Position numbers and translations under genes: made by a program | Shown here: positions 4,001 to 16,537 of the stretch, piece after piece | Position numbering within the stretch: position 1 is the stretch's first letter | Layout: every line of letters begins with the position of its first letter | The notes under the pieces: model-generated | What the model was told of the DNA's origin: nothing | Databases searched by the model: none | What the model saw: the letters and a program-made list of their open reading frames with translations, nothing else | From: Gammaproteobacteria bacterium | GTDB taxonomy: Bacteria; Pseudomonadota; Gammaproteobacteria; Pseudomonadales; Pseudohongiellaceae | Length of the DNA: 64,000 nt | NCBI GenBank assembly: GCA_017853205.1 | Contig: JAFMKB010000004.1 | Location: 1 to 64,000 of the forward strand | Reading direction: 5' to 3'

Positions 4001-5215
4001 ATGCAAAATTTACTGAAAGGACTTCGCATCGTAGAAGGAAGTGCTTTTATTGCAGCGCCCTCTGGAGGAATGACGTTAGGCCAATTGGGCGCGGATGTCA
4101 TTCGCTTTGATCAGATCGGCGGCGGCATCGACTACCGTCGCTGGCCGATAACAGAGCAGGGCAAGAGTCTTTATTGGCATAGTCTCAACAAAGGTAAGCG
4201 TTCGATAGCAGTAGATTTTCGCAAACCCGAGGGCCGTGAGCTGCTCTCGCGACTGATATGCGCACCAGGCGCCGATGGGGGGCTTTTTCTCACGAATTTC
4301 CCCGCGCGCGGTTGGCTTTCCTATGATGCGTTAAAGCGAAGGCGCGAAGATCTCATCTACCTGAATCTAACCGGCGATCGCCACGGCGGCAGTGCGCTGG
4401 ATTACACCGTGAATGCGCGCGTCGGAGTCCCATTTCTTAACGGCGACGGCGTCACTCCTCTAAATAGTGCACTGCCAGCCTGGGACGTGATCGCAGGGCA
4501 GCAGATCGCGCTCGGGCTTCTGGCTGCGGAGCGTCATCGTAGCCGAACCGGGGAAGGGCAAATGATCACTCTTGCGCTTGCCGATGTCGCGCTTGCGACC
4601 ATGGGTCACCTTGGCTACCTCGCGGAGGCTCAGATGAATGAAAACCAGAGACCGGCTATGGGTAATCACATATATGGAACCTTCGGTCACGATTTCGTGT
4701 GTGCCGACGGAGAACGAGTGATGATTGTCGGTGTAAGCCCAAATCAATGGCAGGCAATCGTGAAGGTTACTGATTGCGCTAACAGTGTCGCCGAACTTGC
4801 CTTCGAACTTGGCCTTAACTTCGATAAAGAAGGCGACCGATTTGCTGCAAGAGAAAAATTGCGATCTCTTTTTGAACCCTGGTTCGCTGCACGCAGTAGT
4901 AAACAGGTGCACGTCGCTCTCGAAGCCGCGGGCGTCTGCTGGGGTCCCTATCAAACTGTTAAACAGTTAGTGAAAAACGACGCCGAATGTTCAACCGATA
5001 ATCCCCTTTTCTCATCGATCAATCAGCCCGATATTGGGTGCTTACTCACGCCCTCCCAGCCGCTAAACTTTACGGGGCTCGAGAGTACCGAGCCGAAGCC
5101 CGCGCCGCGCTTGGGTCAACATACCGACGAAATACTTAGCGAACTACTGGAGATGAGTTCGGGGGAGATCGCTGCTTTGCATGATGCGAAAATCGTGGCT
5201 GCGGCGAGTAGCTAA
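4001..5215 (+). CDS. CaiB/BaiF family CoA transferase, mesaconyl-CoA C1-C4 CoA transferase (Mct)-like
   Basis: VEGSAFIAAPSGGMTLGQLGADVIRFDQIGGGIDYRRWP, LNKGKRSIAVDFR, FPARGWLSYD, APRLGQHTDEIL; close to remembered Chloroflexus Mct. Confidence 0.8.
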   Translation: MQNLLKGLRIVEGSAFIAAPSGGMTLGQLGADVIRFDQIGGGIDYRRWPITEQGKSLYWHSLNKGKRSIAVDFRKPEGRELLSRLICAPGADGGLFLTNFPARGWLSYDALKRRREDLIYLNLTGDRHGGSALDYTVNARVGVPFLNGDGVTPLNSALPAWDVIAGQQIALGLLAAERHRSRTGEGQMITLALADVALATMGHLGYLAEAQMNENQRPAMGNHIYGTFGHDFVCADGERVMIVGVSPNQWQAIVKVTDCANSVAELAFELGLNFDKEGDRFAAREKLRSLFEPWFAARSSKQVHVALEAAGVCWGPYQTVKQLVKNDAECSTDNPLFSSINQPDIGCLLTPSQPLNFTGLESTEPKPAPRLGQHTDEILSELLEMSSGEIAALHDAKIVAAASS

Positions 5216-5239
5216 AGACAACATTAAAGAGTGAGAGAG

Positions 5240-6922
5240 ATGTCGACAAACGAAGTAAACGAGCAGGTATTAGCGGCAGGCAATGAAAGCGGCGAGGTTT
5301 TCGCTTTGCTTACCGAGGCGGCTAAGCACTGGCCGGAACGAGCAGCTGTTACTTATCAAGGTTCCACCCAGACATGGCGTGAAACGTTGCTGCGCTGCCG
5401 GGCACAGGCCAGCGTGTTTGCACAGTCAGGTGTCGAGCGCGGTGATAGGATCGCTTATCTCGGTTTCAACTCGAATGTGTGTTTTGAAGGCTATTTCGCC
5501 CCCTCAGCAATTGGCGCAATATTTGTTCCGCTCAATTTCCGCCTGGCCATCGGCGAGTTGATTGAATGTCTTGATGATTGCACGCCACGAATTTTGCTCT
5601 GCGAGCCAGCGTTCTATAGCCAAGCCGTGACATTGTTAAACGCCTGTGCGAGCGTCGAACATATTTTTGTTACTGGCGATCCAGCTGAGTTCGATGCAAC
5701 GAGTGCTAACGGGGTCGAGATCGACGGAGCTGTCCAACCCTTACCAAGTGGAATGCGTTCGCTCGAGAGATGCATTGCTGAGACAGTAGCAGCGAACGCG
5801 TTTGTTGACCTACGGCCGAGCTCGTTTGACGAAACGCTAATCCTTTTCTACACCGGTGGTACAACCGGACGCTCGAAAGGAGTTATGCTCAGCAACAAGA
5901 ATTTCCTGTGTAATACCACGGGCTCTGTGCCGCTTTATAAAATGCAGGATGGCTGGTGTTTCCTCATCGTAGGCCCACTTTTTCATATTGCAGCAGGCGC
6001 ACGCATTTTTAGCTGCGCGGTGCTTGGTGGTCATGCGGTAGTTTTGCCGAAATTCGATGTTCCTGACGTATTAGCAAGCATTGCAAGCTATCGAATCAAC
6101 TCGGCTACGCTTGTTCCGACCATGTTTCAAATGCTTATCGACCACCCGCTTTTTCCGAGCGCTGATCTTTCTTCAATGCAGATGGTAGCCTCTGGTGCTG
6201 CACCAATGCCAATGGCATTGCAGCATCGCGTTATCGAGGCGTTTTCTGGCATCAATCTCTATCAAACCTACGGGATGACCGAGGCGGCGCCCATCGTCAC
6301 AAGTCTCGACTCCCAGTATCACGTTGTCAGCGGTCCTGGTTCTGAGAAATTAGGCTCGGTTGGCAGGCCAGCGCCGCATGTGCAGCTGCGCATTATCGAC
6401 GAAGAGGGCGCTGACCTTCCCATAGGGCAAACCGGCGAAGTGCTTGCGCGCGGCGACAATATTATGACTGGCTATTGGAATTTGCCCGAGCAAACTGCAG
6501 TTGCCTTAAAAGACGGCTGGTATCACACAGGTGATGCCGGCTATCTCGACGCCGAAGGGTTTTTGTTTCTCGAGGGTCGCGTCAAAGACATGATTGTTAG
6601 CGGCGGTGAAAATATCTACCCGATAGAGATAGAGAATGTGCTATCGAGTCATCCCGCGGTTCATCAGTGCGCAGTTATCGGCATTCCTCACGAAACTTGG
6701 GGAGAGGCGGTGCATGCGGTTATTCTCCTCGAAGACTCGGAAAGTAAACCGCCGACAGAGCGTGAATTGATCACCTATTGCCGTGAAAGAATTGCTTCTT
6801 ACAAGTGTCCGGTGAGTGTTAGTTTTAGGAGTGAGCCGATGCCACTCTCGCCTATAAACAAAATTCTAAAGACCGAGCTTCGCAAGCCCTTTTGGGAAGG
6901 GCGATCGAGCGCGCTTGTCTGA
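5240..6922 (+). CDS. AMP-binding acyl-CoA synthetase
   Basis: LFYTGGTTGRSKGVMLSNKN, YQTYGMTEAAP, GWYHTGDAGYLD, GRVKDMIVSGGENIYPIEIE. GTG at 5231 is an alternative start. Confidence 0.93.
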   Translation: MSTNEVNEQVLAAGNESGEVFALLTEAAKHWPERAAVTYQGSTQTWRETLLRCRAQASVFAQSGVERGDRIAYLGFNSNVCFEGYFAPSAIGAIFVPLNFRLAIGELIECLDDCTPRILLCEPAFYSQAVTLLNACASVEHIFVTGDPAEFDATSANGVEIDGAVQPLPSGMRSLERCIAETVAANAFVDLRPSSFDETLILFYTGGTTGRSKGVMLSNKNFLCNTTGSVPLYKMQDGWCFLIVGPLFHIAAGARIFSCAVLGGHAVVLPKFDVPDVLASIASYRINSATLVPTMFQMLIDHPLFPSADLSSMQMVASGAAPMPMALQHRVIEAFSGINLYQTYGMTEAAPIVTSLDSQYHVVSGPGSEKLGSVGRPAPHVQLRIIDEEGADLPIGQTGEVLARGDNIMTGYWNLPEQTAVALKDGWYHTGDAGYLDAEGFLFLEGRVKDMIVSGGENIYPIEIENVLSSHPAVHQCAVIGIPHETWGEAVHAVILLEDSESKPPTERELITYCRERIASYKCPVSVSFRSEPMPLSPINKILKTELRKPFWEGRSSALV

Positions 6923-6923
6923 C

Positions 6924-7601
6924 CTAGGTCGTCCATCCCCCCGCAAGCGGGATCAGCTGTCCGACCATGTGGGTGCAGTGTTCACTCGCGAGATAGGCGG
7001 CGAGTTCCGCGGTTTCGGAAGGCGCGCCGACTTTATTGGTCGGGACATTGCGTTTCACGTGCTCAATGAATTTAGCCTGATCGAGAACATCGTCGGGATA
7101 ATAAGTGTCATTGTTAACATAGTTTTGTGCAATCGCATTGACTTGTATGCCGCTTCGGGCCAGTTCGAGTCCAACCGCTTTAATAAAGCCATTCTGCGCG
7201 CCGCGCGCCGCGCAGTACGCCGCGTTATTCGCGATGCCTTTTAAGGGCGCTGCGCTCGTGACCGCGATTATTTTACCGCTCTGGCGTTCGAGCATCTGTG
7301 GAGTTACTGCACGAACAAGATACATTAGCGGGTCTACTAAGCGTACGAATAATCGCTGCCAGTTGGCGTCATCTATCGCATGTACCGGACCGGTCATCGG
7401 CGGTTCAGCAAGATTCGCTACTAAGATATCGATGCGTCCGGCTTCTGCGATTACACGATCAACCTCGGCATTACTCGTGAGCGGAGAGTCGTCTTCGATA
7501 ACGTCGATAGACAGTTGTCTGAACTTCGTTGCGATAGCGCGTCCCATATAGCGGTCTGCGCAGGTGATTAATGCCCGACGTGCGGGCGTAGTGGATGTCA
7601 T
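6924..7601 (-). CDS. SDR-fold protein with halohydrin dehalogenase (Hhe-type) signature motifs
   Basis: T-x4-Y-x-G (TCADRYMG) replaces the Gly-rich cofactor motif; S-x12-Y-x3-R (SAAPLKGIANNAAYCAAR) replaces S-Y-K; further HheC-like AIAQNY...YYP, HVKR, GQLIPLAGG. Confidence 0.75.
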   Translation of the reverse strand: MTSTTPARRALITCADRYMGRAIATKFRQLSIDVIEDDSPLTSNAEVDRVIAEAGRIDILVANLAEPPMTGPVHAIDDANWQRLFVRLVDPLMYLVRAVTPQMLERQSGKIIAVTSAAPLKGIANNAAYCAARGAQNGFIKAVGLELARSGIQVNAIAQNYVNNDTYYPDDVLDQAKFIEHVKRNVPTNKVGAPSETAELAAYLASEHCTHMVGQLIPLAGGWTT

Positions 7602-7663: not shown

Positions 7664-8284
7664 CTAGCTCACCCTGTTCTTTTCAGCAAGCAAGTGCTTT
7701 ACAAATTTTTCAAGCGTCTCATAGGGCTGGCAGCCCACTACAGCGAGGTCGTTGGCATAAAATGTAGGTACGCCAGTCACGCCAACCTCGCGCGATCGCG
7801 CCCAATCATCATCGACCTTGGTAGAGAAACTGCGCTCAGTCAGAACGGTACGCGCTGCGCCGCTGTCGAGTCCAACTGATTCGGCGATGGCAATGAGCGC
7901 ATCAATATCGCTGATGTTAATGGCGTTGACAAAGTAGGCACGATAAAGCGCCTCGTGAATGGCGTCACCACCGGTCTGCGTGTCAGCCCAGGCACCGAGT
8001 TCCTGTGCGAGCCGGCTATTATAAGTATGCGTGCGCTCGCCGTAGTCAAGACCAGCTTCCGCCATAAGGCTCTTGAGCCTCTGGCGGATAGGCTCGATGT
8101 CTCGTCCCGCGAACATTTCGGCTAATGAACGTCCTTCGGCAGGGGTGTCTGGATGCAGCGGGAAGTGAACCCACTGAATTTTGACGGGGTAATTCGTCTT
8201 CAGTTTTTCAATACTCACGGTACTGAGGTAACACCAGGGTCAAACGTAATCGGTGAAGACGTCTAGTTGAATAATGTTGGACAT
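7664..8284 (-). CDS. DsbA/FrnE-family oxidoreductase, candidate selenoprotein (UPWC active site, in-frame TGA at 8240-8242)
   Basis: From ATG at 8284 with upstream GGAG: MSNIIQLDVFTDYV-(TGA)-PWCYLSTVSIEKLKTNYPVKIQWVHFPLHPDTPAEG... The track ORF starts downstream of the TGA at a GTG (8218). Confidence 0.8.
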
Positions 8285-8343
8285 GTAGCGCTCCGACTGA
8301 GTGTTAGGCGTTGTTATCAAACCAACATTGACTGTATCAAACT

Positions 8344-8349
8344 CTTATC
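8344..8349 (-). promoter_or_regulatory. Possible -10 element (GATAAG) of the dsbA-like gene
   Basis: Positioned about as expected for a class II FNR promoter with the box at 8373-8386. Confidence 0.4.
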
Positions 8350-8372
8350 TGCGTTGCCTTTATTAGTTCTGC

Positions 8373-8386
8373 TTGATGTAGATCAA
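8373..8386. promoter_or_regulatory. FNR/Anr binding site TTGATGTAGATCAA
   Basis: Perfect match to TTGAT-N4-ATCAA, in the divergent region between the dsbA-like and TPR genes. Confidence 0.8.
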
Positions 8387-8537
8387 ATAGGCGATAACTG
8401 AATTAATTTGGTGGCGATTATTACGCTTTTTTGCAAGTTGCAGTGTGTTTGCACCATTTGCCTCTTGTGCCAATTGCGCTAGACTCAACGGGTTGACGGG
8501 ACTACTGAGACCAGAAAATAACAACGGAGAAACGACC

Positions 8538-10220
8538 ATGCGTAAACTCTTAACCGCCGGTGTCATACTCGGCGTCACCGCGATGCAACTCGCGGCGCTG
8601 CCGTCTACAGCTGTCGGTCAGTCTAGCGACGAACCGCTTGCCATACTCGTACCCGGTGGCGGGACGTATTCGCGGCCTATCACGACCGACTCTGATCTTG
8701 CGCAGCAGTTTTTTGATCAAGGATTGCGCATGGCGTGGAGTTTTTACTTCCCCGAGTCGATTGCCTCGTATCAAGAAGCGAGCCGCCTAGATCCCGACAG
8801 TCCTATGCCCTATTTCGGGTTAGCGCATGCTGCGGGCCCCAATCCTAATAGCCGCTATGCAAATATGCCGGACGATCCGCAAGGTACTGGTCTTGCGGCT
8901 ATCCGAGAAGCCATGCGGCGCATCGATAATGCGACGCCGCGGGAGCAGGATATGATCCGCGCGCTTTTCGTTCTTTACAACAAAGATGCGATCCCCGACA
9001 ACCGAGAGCGAGATTTCGCTTTCGTCGATGCAATGCGCAAACTACATGCGAAGTACCCCGAAGATCCCGATATCGGAGCAATGTTCGCGGCGGGCTTCAT
9101 GAACACGACCCGTTGGGATTATTGGGAGAAGGATGGGACAGCGCGCCCAGGCACGGAGGAGGCGCAGTTGGCGCTCGAAGCGGCGATGCGTGCGGAGCAC
9201 GATCATCCCGGCGCTAACCACCTTTACATACATCTAATGGAGGCCTCTTCTCAGCCCGAATTAGCGATGCCTGCGGCTCAAAAGCTAGAATCTACCGTGC
9301 CCATTTCGGGTCACATGGTTCACATGCCCGGACACATTTATCTTCGAGTAGGCGAGTATGAAAAAGCGATAGACATCAACGAGCGCTCGCAGATCGTCGA
9401 TCTTCAGTTTGCCGAACTGTGGGGCAATACTAACTTCCCCAACATTGGTACTTATCCGCTATCTCACAAAATGCACGCACCACACGCGCTAGACTTTGTG
9501 CGGTATGCCAGCATGCTGCAGGGTAGTTATGCTGAGGCATCCGAAGCGGCGCAGCGCGGAGCAGCGAGCGTCGGCACCGCACCCGAGGCGGTGAACCGAG
9601 GCGAGAAGCGCGTTGTGCACTCTTGGGTTGTCGACAAGGTGTTTGGCAAATGGGACAAGCTACTTAGCAGTGAGCAGAGCCATAAAGGCACGCCTTACCT
9701 CGACGGTATGTGGAGCTATGTGACCGGCAGCGCCAACATCGCGAAGGGTAATCTCGCTGCAGCGGATGCGGCGCTTTTACACATTCGTGAAATGGCTGCT
9801 GATCCAAAGGTCGATACTACAGGCGTGAGCCCTACGTCCGCTTCGCAGATTCTTACGCTTGCGGGTTTCGCGCTCGAGGGTGAAATTAAAGAAGCGCGCG
9901 GCGATCTGGACGGCGCGATTGCTGCCTTCGCGCGCGCAGTTGAGATTGAAGACACGAACAGCTATACCGAGCCACCCGATTGGTCTCAGTCGATGCGTCT
10001 TTACCTTGGTGCTGCTCAGCTAGATGCTGGGCAGGCCGCCGAAGCTGAAGCGACATTCCGCCAAGATCTCGAGTGGAAGCAGCAGAGTGGCTGGTCGACT
10101 TTTGGTCTGTATCAGGCGATCGAGGCGCAGGGACGCAGTGCCGAGGCCGAGATTGTGAAGCGACAGTTCGAGTCTTTCTGGCGTAATGCCGATGTGACCC
10201 TGTCGCGGGCGCATCTCTAG
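8538..10220 (+). CDS. Secreted TPR-repeat protein
   Basis: Signal peptide MRKLLTAGVILGVTAMQLAALPSTAVGQ; repeated TPR-like helices. The track start at 8445 is probably too early. Confidence 0.75.
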   Translation: MRKLLTAGVILGVTAMQLAALPSTAVGQSSDEPLAILVPGGGTYSRPITTDSDLAQQFFDQGLRMAWSFYFPESIASYQEASRLDPDSPMPYFGLAHAAGPNPNSRYANMPDDPQGTGLAAIREAMRRIDNATPREQDMIRALFVLYNKDAIPDNRERDFAFVDAMRKLHAKYPEDPDIGAMFAAGFMNTTRWDYWEKDGTARPGTEEAQLALEAAMRAEHDHPGANHLYIHLMEASSQPELAMPAAQKLESTVPISGHMVHMPGHIYLRVGEYEKAIDINERSQIVDLQFAELWGNTNFPNIGTYPLSHKMHAPHALDFVRYASMLQGSYAEASEAAQRGAASVGTAPEAVNRGEKRVVHSWVVDKVFGKWDKLLSSEQSHKGTPYLDGMWSYVTGSANIAKGNLAAADAALLHIREMAADPKVDTTGVSPTSASQILTLAGFALEGEIKEARGDLDGAIAAFARAVEIEDTNSYTEPPDWSQSMRLYLGAAQLDAGQAAEAEATFRQDLEWKQQSGWSTFGLYQAIEAQGRSAEAEIVKRQFESFWRNADVTLSRAHL

Positions 10221-13061: not shown

Positions 13062-15128
13062 ATGAACAAAACAACTTTCTCCGCAGGCCAAGCAAACAAG
13101 CGTTGCGGAAACGGCACTGCTCGAGTACGACACTTTTCACCTCAAGCGGCAGCGGTAACACTTGCCGTGGTCAGCTTTGGACTCGCCGGATCGCTGTTTG
13201 CTCAGGATCACTTCAATGCGAAGGGTTCTCCAGCGTCAGTGCACACATCAGAACTGCAACAAGAACTGCGCGAATCACTCCCCTTTGAGGACGATCGAGA
13301 CTTTGCCGAGTCACGCCGCGGCTTCATCGCAGAACCCGCCTCAAAGCAGATCCTAAATTCTCAAGGCGCTGTTGTCTGGGATATGGGGCGATACGAATTT
13401 TTGCTAAGCGGTGAAGAGTTCGACTCAATGCATCCATCGCTCCAGCGGCAAGCAACACTTAATATGAACTTCGGTCTTTACGAGGTTGTGCCAGATTTTA
13501 TCTATCAGGTGCGTGGCTTCGACCTCTCGAATATGACTCTTGTGCGGGGCGATACGGGCTGGATACTTTTCGACGTCTTGCTGTCTGCAGAAACCGCGGC
13601 GGCGGCGCTTAAACTAGCCAATGAGCAGCTCGGCGAATTGCCGGTCAAAGCGGTAGTGTACTCGCACTCACATATCGATCATTTCGGTGGTGTGTTAGGC
13701 GTTACGAGCATTGACGCAGTAAACAACGGCGAGGTCGCTATCTATGCGCCCGTAGGATTCATGGAGGAGGCTATTTCTGAGAATGTCTACGCCGGTAATT
13801 CGATGTCGCGTCGCGCGGGCTTTCAGTATGGCCGACTTATTCCCTCTAGCCCTTTTGGGCAGGTCGACTCGGCCATAGGCAAGGGACTGTCGGTTGGTGC
13901 CGCGGGCCTCATCCCGCCCACGGTTGTTGTTACCGAGCCATTTGAAGAGCACATAATAGACGGCATACGCGTAAATTTTCAAAATACACCGGGCACCGAA
14001 GCGCCAGCAGAGATGAATGCGTGGTTCCCCGATCACAAAGTTTTCTGGGCGGCAGAAAACATTACGGCAACCATCCACAATGTGTATACACTTCGCGGCG
14101 CACTGGTGCGAGATGCCCTAGCATGGTCGAAGCAAATCAACGCTGCGCTCTATGAGTTTGGTCTTGAGGCAGAGGTTATGGTCTCGTCACACAACTGGCC
14201 GCGTTGGGGCAACGAGCGAATTCAGGAAGTACTGCGCACTCAGAGAGATGCCTACGCGAACCTCAATAACCAAGTGCTGCATCTTGCGAATCAAGGCGTA
14301 ACGATCAATGAAATTCACAATGAGTATCAGGTCCCCCTAAGCTTGCAGCAGAAGTGGAGCGCTCGTCAGTACCATGGGTCGGAATTCCATAATTCACGCG
14401 CAGTGATCAATCGCTATCTAGGCTACTGGGATGGCAATCCGGCAACGCTCGTGCCGCTTTCGCCTGCTGATTCGGCCCCGCTTTATGTGGAGATGATGGG
14501 AGGAAGTGAGAAAATAATCGCGAGAAGCAGCGAGCTTGTTAGCGAAGGGAGCTATCGTCATGCAATGGAGCTGCTGAATAAGCTTGTCTATGCTGAGCCT
14601 TCGAATACCGAAGCGAAAGACTTGTTGGCCGACGTATTCGAACAGCTTGGATATCAATACGAAAGCGCAAGTGTGCGTCATGTGTTCCTTTCTTCTGCTG
14701 AGGAGTTACGCAACGGCGTCAGGCCGTATGAGAGCCCTCGAGGTGGCAGCCCGACAGTTGCGCGCGCGATGACAACTGGGCAGTGGTGGGATGCGGTAGC
14801 CACACGCGTCGATAGCCAAGCCGCAGATGAAATTAATTTTGTACTCAATTTCATTACGCCTGATACGAGTGAAACTTTTGTCGTCGAACTGAGTGGTGGG
14901 ACACTTTCTAACATCGAAGGCTATCTAGCGCCCAATCCCGATATCACAATCACAATGAATCGTAGCGACGTCGAAACCATCATCATGGGGCAGGCCACAC
15001 TCGGATCTCAATTGCAAAGTGGTATCGGCACTGTAACTGGTAACGCGGGGTTACTTATGCAGCTGAATTCGGTTTTGGTTGAGTTTGATCCAAGCTTTGA
15101 AGTAATTCCCGGAACGCGCAATCCATAA
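13062..15128 (+). CDS. Alkyl sulfatase (SdsA1/BDS1-like MBL fold with C-terminal SCP2-like domain)
   Basis: YSHSHIDHFGGVLG, WFPDHKVFWAAENI, WPRWGNERI; C-terminal INFVLNFITPDTSETFVVELSGG. Confidence 0.9.
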   Translation: MNKTTFSAGQANKRCGNGTARVRHFSPQAAAVTLAVVSFGLAGSLFAQDHFNAKGSPASVHTSELQQELRESLPFEDDRDFAESRRGFIAEPASKQILNSQGAVVWDMGRYEFLLSGEEFDSMHPSLQRQATLNMNFGLYEVVPDFIYQVRGFDLSNMTLVRGDTGWILFDVLLSAETAAAALKLANEQLGELPVKAVVYSHSHIDHFGGVLGVTSIDAVNNGEVAIYAPVGFMEEAISENVYAGNSMSRRAGFQYGRLIPSSPFGQVDSAIGKGLSVGAAGLIPPTVVVTEPFEEHIIDGIRVNFQNTPGTEAPAEMNAWFPDHKVFWAAENITATIHNVYTLRGALVRDALAWSKQINAALYEFGLEAEVMVSSHNWPRWGNERIQEVLRTQRDAYANLNNQVLHLANQGVTINEIHNEYQVPLSLQQKWSARQYHGSEFHNSRAVINRYLGYWDGNPATLVPLSPADSAPLYVEMMGGSEKIIARSSELVSEGSYRHAMELLNKLVYAEPSNTEAKDLLADVFEQLGYQYESASVRHVFLSSAEELRNGVRPYESPRGGSPTVARAMTTGQWWDAVATRVDSQAADEINFVLNFITPDTSETFVVELSGGTLSNIEGYLAPNPDITITMNRSDVETIIMGQATLGSQLQSGIGTVTGNAGLLMQLNSVLVEFDPSFEVIPGTRNP

Positions 15129-15140
15129 ACACCTCTTTAG

Positions 15141-15169
15141 TCTCTGGTGAATCGATGATTCACCAGAGA
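15141..15169. repeat. Perfect 13-bp intercistronic hairpin TCTCTGGTGAATC-GAT-GATTCACCAGAGA
   Basis: Arms 15141-15153 and 15157-15169 with a 3-nt loop; no T tract. Confidence 0.85.
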
Positions 15170-15193
15170 GTCGTGGTTGTGAGGGTAAAGAGA

Positions 15194-16537
15194 ATGAATT
15201 TTCGATCTGTATCTAAAGTAAAAATTTTAGGTGCCATCGCGCTTAGTTTGTTTGTTGCCAGCGCCGCAGTGAGTGCGGCGAGCGATAAACCAAATTTCGT
15301 CATTGTTATGGCCGACGACCTCGGCTATGGCGATCTCGGCGTCTATGGCGCTAAGCTGATAAAGACGCCAAATCTCGACCGCATGGCGCTGAATGGTGCT
15401 CGTTTCGATAGCTTTTATTCGAGTGCGAACATCTGCACGGCGGCGCGCGGAGGATTATTAACCGGTCGGTATCCAATTCGGCTAGGGCTGGTTAATGACG
15501 TGGCGCGGCCGACTAACGAGATTCACCTCGCGGAGGAAGAAGTGACGATCGCCGAAGCGCTGCAGCCGCTAGGCTATCGAACCGGACTCTTCGGAAAGTG
15601 GCACCTTGGCAGCCGGGTCGAATGGTCGCCGTTGCATGCTGGGTTCGATACCTACTTTGGTGTTCTGCACAGCAATGACATGCTGCCTCTCGAACTTTAC
15701 AGCCAAGAAGCAATGATCGAAGACCCAGTCGTGCAGGAAACGCTGACGCAGCGTTATACCGAACAGGCATTGGCGTTCGTTGAAGACAGCGTCGCCAATG
15801 AAGATCCGTTCTTCCTCTATTTGCCCCACAGCTTCCCGCACGTTCCTCTTTACACGACAGCGCCTTTTGAGGGGCAATCCGATGCGGGTCTCTATGGCGA
15901 TGTCGTTGAGACGATCGACTGGAGCATGGGAGAGATCCTTGCCAAGCTCGAGGAATTAGGGGTGGCGAACAATACCTTAGTCATTTTCACCTCCGACAAC
16001 GGTCCTTGGTGGGAAGGTAGCCCTGGCCCCTTTCGCGATCGCAAAGGCAGTTCATGGGAAGGTGGACAGCGCGTGCCGTTCATTGCGCAATGGCCTGGCA
16101 TGATCCCTCAAGGCTTGGTGTCGAATGAGCCGGCGATGAACATCGATCTTCTACCGACGCTTGTCGCGCTTGCGGGTGGTGACTTACCGGACGATCGCGC
16201 CATAGACGGAAAAAACATTACGGCAATGCTGACAGAGAATGCAGTTTCGCCTCATGAGGCACTTTTTCTTTTTGACGCCGATAGGATTGCGGGTGTGCGT
16301 AGCGGCCAATGGAAACTCGTGCTTGAGTCTCGCTATCGTACGGCGACGAACAGCTTCGATAATCCTGATTCCTATTATGGCCCCGTCGGGCTTTTGTTTG
16401 ACGTGGTAAAAGACCCGTCTGAAACATACAGCTTCGCGCGTGAACAGCCGGAGATCGTCAACTCGCTGCGAGCGCATCTCGAACGTGGTCAAAAAACCTA
16501 TAACAGCACCGTGCTGCCCAATATGTGGAATCGCTAA
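15194..16537 (+). CDS. Formylglycine-dependent sulfatase (arylsulfatase family), exported
   Basis: PNFVIVMADDLGYGDLGVYG; CTAARGGLLTGRYPIRLG fits a CxAxR FGly motif; signal peptide after MNFRSVSKVKILGAIALSLFV. Track start 15155 lies inside the hairpin. Confidence 0.9.
   Translation: MNFRSVSKVKILGAIALSLFVASAAVSAASDKPNFVIVMADDLGYGDLGVYGAKLIKTPNLDRMALNGARFDSFYSSANICTAARGGLLTGRYPIRLGLVNDVARPTNEIHLAEEEVTIAEALQPLGYRTGLFGKWHLGSRVEWSPLHAGFDTYFGVLHSNDMLPLELYSQEAMIEDPVVQETLTQRYTEQALAFVEDSVANEDPFFLYLPHSFPHVPLYTTAPFEGQSDAGLYGDVVETIDWSMGEILAKLEELGVANNTLVIFTSDNGPWWEGSPGPFRDRKGSSWEGGQRVPFIAQWPGMIPQGLVSNEPAMNIDLLPTLVALAGGDLPDDRAIDGKNITAMLTENAVSPHEALFLFDADRIAGVRSGQWKLVLESRYRTATNSFDNPDSYYGPVGLLFDVVKDPSETYSFAREQPEIVNSLRAHLERGQKTYNSTVLPNMWNR

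Follow-up and report, generated by a model that had tools for sequence, protein, structure and literature searches.

A probable cofactor-independent halohydrin dehalogenase of B/D-like type, encoded beside a probable selenoprotein in a marine gammaproteobacterium

In a genome of Pseudohongiellaceae (Gammaproteobacteria bacterium, assembly GCA_017853205.1), we have found a gene that very probably encodes a cofactor-independent halohydrin dehalogenase (HHDH) of B/D-like type, built on the fold of short-chain dehydrogenases/reductases (SDRs); motifs, sequence relatives, fold, and phylogenetic trees all point to this assignment. The gene lies in the first 64,000 nucleotides of contig JAFMKB010000004.1, the stretch of DNA that was analyzed here (the window; Table 1). 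HHDHs are valued biocatalysts, which interconvert halo-alcohols and epoxides without a cofactor. The protein is a new and fairly remote member of this known enzyme family and would be expected to act as a dehalogenase. Its own family adds HHDH sequences far from the characterized types, and the conserved neighbors provide a first lead to the natural role of such HHDHs; indeed, a deep and strongly conserved branch with a fixed neighborhood in one marine genus, together with the haloalkane dehalogenase and epoxide hydrolase genes near some relatives, makes this natural role testable.

The open reading frame on the minus strand is intact, with 225 codons and an ATG start. As had been claimed in an earlier reading of the DNA letters (the sequence-only reading), it contains both of the HHDH motifs: namely, T-x4-[FY]-x-G occurs as TCADRYMG at residues 13–20, and S-x12-Y-x3-R occurs as SAAPLKGIANNAAYCAAR at residues 116–133. 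The motif definitions given in that reading agree with the published ones (PMC4989007, PMC11976700). Neither of the SDR motifs TGxxxGxG and S-x10-14-Y-x3-K is present in the 225-residue protein; when its residues were shuffled 50,000 times, only four of the shuffled sequences had both HHDH motifs. In the seven SDRs checked from the same genome, furthermore, TGxxxGxG was found in all seven and the S-Y-K motif in six, and none had any HHDH motif. The pair of motifs has been used for sequence mining in a 2014 study, where, as recounted in PMC4989007, all 19 enzymes picked for test were truly active. Pfam and NCBIfam gave the protein only generic SDR names, as the sequence-only reading had foreseen for its annotation, and none of the NCBIfam matches shown reached the cut-off.

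Table 1. Features of the window around the putative HHDH gene
Feature	Position	Strand	Evidence or remark
Probable HHDH gene, 225 aa, B/D-like	6924..7601	-	ORF, PDB sequence search, tree, fold search
HHDH motif 1, T13-x4-Y18-x-G20; predicted nucleophile pocket, replaces SDR glycine motif	7542..7565	-	codon-computed position
HHDH motif 2, S116-x12-Y129-x3-R133; predicted catalytic triad	7203..7256	-	motif and conservation
Loop NYVNNDTYYP, residues 160–169; presumed halide-side loop, role inferred	7095..7124	-	aligns with HheD NYxxNxTYFP segment
Acyl-CoA dehydrogenase, 564 aa, ~160 extra N-terminal residues	2252..3946	+	Pfam/NCBIfam
Class III CoA-transferase, 2-methylfumaryl-CoA-isomerase-like	4001..5215	+	562 bits, cut-off 725
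Acyl-CoA ligase (AMP-binding), convergent with HHDH gene	5231..6922	+	Pfam/NCBIfam
DsbA/FrnE-like gene, probable selenoprotein (UxxC)	7664..8284	-	upstream of HHDH gene, co-directional, 62 bp apart
In-frame TGA at first position of CxxC motif, predicted Sec	8240..8242	-	
Candidate bacterial SECIS hairpin UCAGUAC-CGUGA-GUAUUGA	8208..8226	-	synonymous sites nearly invariant

A phmmer search of the PDB with the protein hit 7b73 (7e-56), which is HheD2 (PMC9629495), 8xxb (2e-55), which is a triple mutant of HheD8 with chloride, HheB (~1e-40), and a "dehalogenase" (6a41, 7e-30), and ordinary SDRs appeared in the same search from ~1e-24. The identity to the protein was 45% for HheD8, 43% for HheD2 (43–46% for the pair), 38% for HheB, 30% for HheA2, 29% for HheC, and 28% for HheG; the references of HheC, HheA2, and HheG were checked against PDB entries 1pwx, 1zmo, and 5o30, respectively, with the letters of 5o30 taken as HheG. 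The identity to any characterized HHDH is at most 46%, which speaks against the HHDH assignment. HheD2 and HheD8 share with the protein both motifs, the length, the fold (TM 0.92–0.96), and the loop AIAQNxVxNxTYxP, but they group with HheB to the exclusion of the window's family, which has conserved segments of its own (AEPPMTG and GIxNNAAYCAARGAQN). HheB (4zd6, 5b12) is similarly alike in motifs and fold (TM 0.94, rmsd 1.2) but has other substrate-side residues, while HheC, HheA2, and HheG have the motifs and the catalytic triad in common with the protein but possess longer chains and are distant on the tree. Of the HheC-like segments described in the sequence-only reading, AIAQNYVNNDTYYP and GQLIPLAGGW are indeed present, but they are closer to HheB/HheD than to HheC; at 29% identity to HheC, the HheC-like assignment was dropped in favor of a B/D-like one.

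An AlphaFold2 model of the protein, which was built from 35 relatives, had a mean pLDDT of 91.9 and a pTM of 0.90. In a Foldseek search of the PDB, the model matched chloride-bound HheD8 (8xxb) at TM 0.95, HheD2 at 0.92–0.94, and HheB at 0.93–0.94 (1.2–1.3 Å); ranks 1–15 were all (halohydrin) dehalogenases, and the first ordinary SDR came at rank 16. The model and the trees both support the membership of the protein in the HHDH family: the fold is closest to those of the known HHDHs (pLDDT 92, TM 0.95 to HheD8), and the protein groups with HHDHs (B/D) apart from SDRs, in agreement with the motifs and the PDB sequence search. The generic matches in Pfam and NCBIfam would favor an ordinary NAD(P)-dependent short-chain dehydrogenase/reductase; this is, however, highly improbable, given that the glycine motif is missing, the catalytic Lys is replaced by Arg, the dehalogenases occupy all of the top ranks in the fold search, and the SDRs of the same genome branch away from the protein in the trees. 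Classical SDR identity was ruled out on motifs, fold, and tree.

In terms of the sub-type, the sequences would provisionally place the protein in the B/D neighborhood as a remote branch, in trees with types A, B, C, D, and G as the references and only two SDRs as the outgroup. In a tree of 85 rows, the window's family, HheB, and HheD were on one side (95/90) and types A, C, and G and the SDRs on the other; HheB joined HheD2/HheD8 (97/95) with the window's family outside. A tree of 34 rows gave the grouping of HheB and HheD again (99/96), and the A/C rows fell oddly inside the window's family, for which a single clade was not rejected (AU p = 0.20); a grouping of the family with D without HheB was weakly rejected (AU p = 0.031). 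The family is hence outside HheB, HheD2, and HheD8 in both trees, albeit with long branches, and the long branches of the references make the deep order among the HHDH types unstable. With HheD8 and HheD2 as the nearest solved relatives, and with long branches and an unstable deep order in trees of types A, B, C, D, and G, it is quite possible that the protein is a genuine HheD-type enzyme instead of a separate branch, or that it belongs to the published E type. Both the joining of HheB with HheD2/HheD8 and the weak rejection noted above nonetheless argue against the D type, as does the level of identity: the D enzymes mined later were 57–95% identical to verified ones (PMC4989007), as compared with 43–45% here to HheD2/HheD8.

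The residues of motif 2 (S116, Y129, and R133) were invariant among 35 diverse relatives, and those of motif 1 (T13, Y18, and G20) were at least 90% conserved. The dN/dS values against close orthologues (0.04–0.10) indicate purifying selection. Within the genus, 36 further genomes were searched, and 21 of them carry an orthologue with 68–97% identity; no match passed 1e-30 in 22 genomes belonging to other families within the order. When 85,488 species genomes were scanned, at least 564 coding matches were obtained, and the best 80 of these were retained; records in the best 80 of the at least 564 were titled OM182, Pseudohongiella, SAR92/Porticoccaceae, and Burkholderiales, with single ones titled Desulfobacteraceae, Myxococcales, and Hydrogenedentota.

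By homology to the solved HHDHs (PMC4989007, PMC11976700), Arg133 would lower the pKa of Tyr129; with Ser116 holding a vicinal halo-alcohol, Tyr129 would then take its proton. The resulting alkoxide would displace the neighboring halide with closure of the ring to an epoxide, and the halide would exit into the motif-1 pocket (T13, Y18, and G20), which corresponds to the NAD(P) site of SDRs. Since the HHDH reaction is reversible, halide, azide, cyanide, or nitrite would also be expected to open epoxides in the enzyme.

Around the HHDH gene, the CoA-transferase was found in all 20 same-genus regions examined, usually along with the acyl-CoA dehydrogenase. Further genes in the loci of other members encode a MaoC hydratase, an SDR, a thiolase, an HMG-CoA-synthase-like protein, and a second acyl-CoA dehydrogenase. 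The CoA-transferase is present in all of the 36 other genomes of the genus (37 with that of the window) with or without HHDH, and eight genomes have the CoA locus and the selenoprotein described below without the HHDH gene. No HHDH remnant was detected in the 15 HHDH-less loci checked. HHDH is therefore considered to be accessory to the CoA locus, because some genomes carry the locus without it; a single operon with the CoA genes was rejected on account of those eight genomes and the convergent direction of the HHDH gene. Elsewhere in the window (13062–16537, +), a gene for an SDS-hydrolase-type alkyl sulfatase is followed by those for a type I sulfatase and a sugar-type ABC transporter.

The DsbA/FrnE-like neighbor is probably a selenoprotein. 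Standard reading shortens the gene to 184 residues with a GTG start, and the in-frame reading upstream gives MSNIIQLDVFTDYV-TGA-PWCYLST, where TGA takes the place of the first Cys of CPWC; the protein will be truncated wherever UGA is annotated as a stop. The TGA was at this codon in 40 of the 41 copies from the window and the fetched loci (the exception, in locus L089, is disrupted) and in all 29 copies of the same genus in a whole-genome search that included the window's, and it was absent from three weaker homologues in other families. Also, the genome has SelA (552 bits), SelB (350), and tRNA-Sec (67), all of which are above the cut-offs and on one contig. The CTCAGTACCGTGAGTATTGA after UGA is almost unchanged in 40 sequences even at synonymous sites, with later codons varying. 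Four variants were folded, and two of them can form a 7-bp hairpin with CGUGA as the loop. As a SECIS, the hairpin was not significant by folding energy (z of −0.3 to −1.1), and the case thus rests on the position of UGA, the Sec machinery, and the conservation of synonymous sites. DsbA-like selenoproteins with UxxC are of a known kind (PMC1088965, PMC13188914), to which the neighbor is alike in the PF01323/FrnE-like domain, the UxxC motif, and the occurrence in marine bacteria; in the literature searched, however, their linkage to an HHDH or to this CoA locus was not reported. In many genomes, the stop of the DsbA-like gene overlaps the start of the HHDH gene by 4 nt, which suggests one transcript. 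The pair is not always adjacent, because a gene for proline utilization (PutA) intervenes in some genomes: it lies between the two in L040 (5836–9474, −), and a 1200-aa ORF does likewise in L046, L057, L095, L100, and L102.

While the assignment to the HHDH family concerns fold and active site, the natural reaction might not be dehalogenation, which would then be a side activity; for example, an epoxide on a CoA thioester or an acid of the adjacent locus could be opened or closed with another anion or leaving group. We consider this possible if somewhat doubtful. The neighborhood in the genus is one of CoA-ester catabolism without a halogen gene: neither an epoxide hydrolase nor a dehalogenase gene was found among the window's genes up to ~22.5 kb, nor was an epoxide hydrolase or other dehalogenase gene beside HHDH found in the window's genus. 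This genome has a single epoxide hydrolase of PF06441, on contig C91, and a haloalkane-dehalogenase-like gene below the cut-off, on contig C11, both away from the HHDH gene; the lack of such neighbors in the genus also counts against the HHDH assignment. HHDHs, furthermore, accept many anions in the reverse direction, and a 2016 review allows other physiological functions of HHDHs (PMC4989007). Dehalogenation as the natural reaction would nonetheless fit with the conserved pocket motif, with the occurrence of the CoA locus also without the HHDH gene, and with the presence of a haloalkane dehalogenase near a 67%-identical relative; in the SAR92-type loci L096 and L097, indeed, a haloalkane dehalogenase gene (8009–9055, +; 373 bits, cut-off 265) is two genes upstream of that HHDH gene on the same strand. 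As a guess, the natural role would most likely be to handle halohydrins or epoxides that might either feed or poison the adjacent CoA-thioester catabolism, and we can only speculate that these are sea-water compounds derived from acids or hydrocarbons. It is a tentative and rather unlikely idea that the window's family is a hitherto undescribed sub-type of HHDHs in marine Gammaproteobacteria, with a conversion or protection step in CoA-thioester catabolism as its natural role, beside a selenocysteine DsbA-like protein the gene of which is often translationally coupled; if true, HHDHs would gain a native pathway outside pollutant degradation.

Outside the genus, the neighbors of HHDH genes differ from the CoA locus. 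Our literature search on HheE, and on clusters of HHDH genes linked to a physiological role, yielded nothing of use; the 2016 review knew of only two HHDH genes that share an operon with an epoxide hydrolase (PMC4989007). On plasmid pSA2 of Novosphingobium resinovorum (NZ_CP017077.1; L168, 4805–6678), an epoxide hydrolase gene is followed after 11 bp by a 35%-identical HHDH-like gene, which is annotated only as an SDR and has Ser in place of Thr in motif 1; natural variation at this threonine is known (PMC11976700). The pair is surrounded by acyl-CoA and aldehyde dehydrogenase genes. Like the haloalkane dehalogenase in L096 and L097, this epoxide hydrolase beside a relative favors the HHDH assignment. 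Loci L117, L118, L121, and L126, in which the HHDHs are 46–50% identical to that of the window, have a conserved setting of their own, where a small Cys-containing protein (~128–158 aa as called; no NCBIfam match for the one tested) is encoded directly before the HHDH gene.
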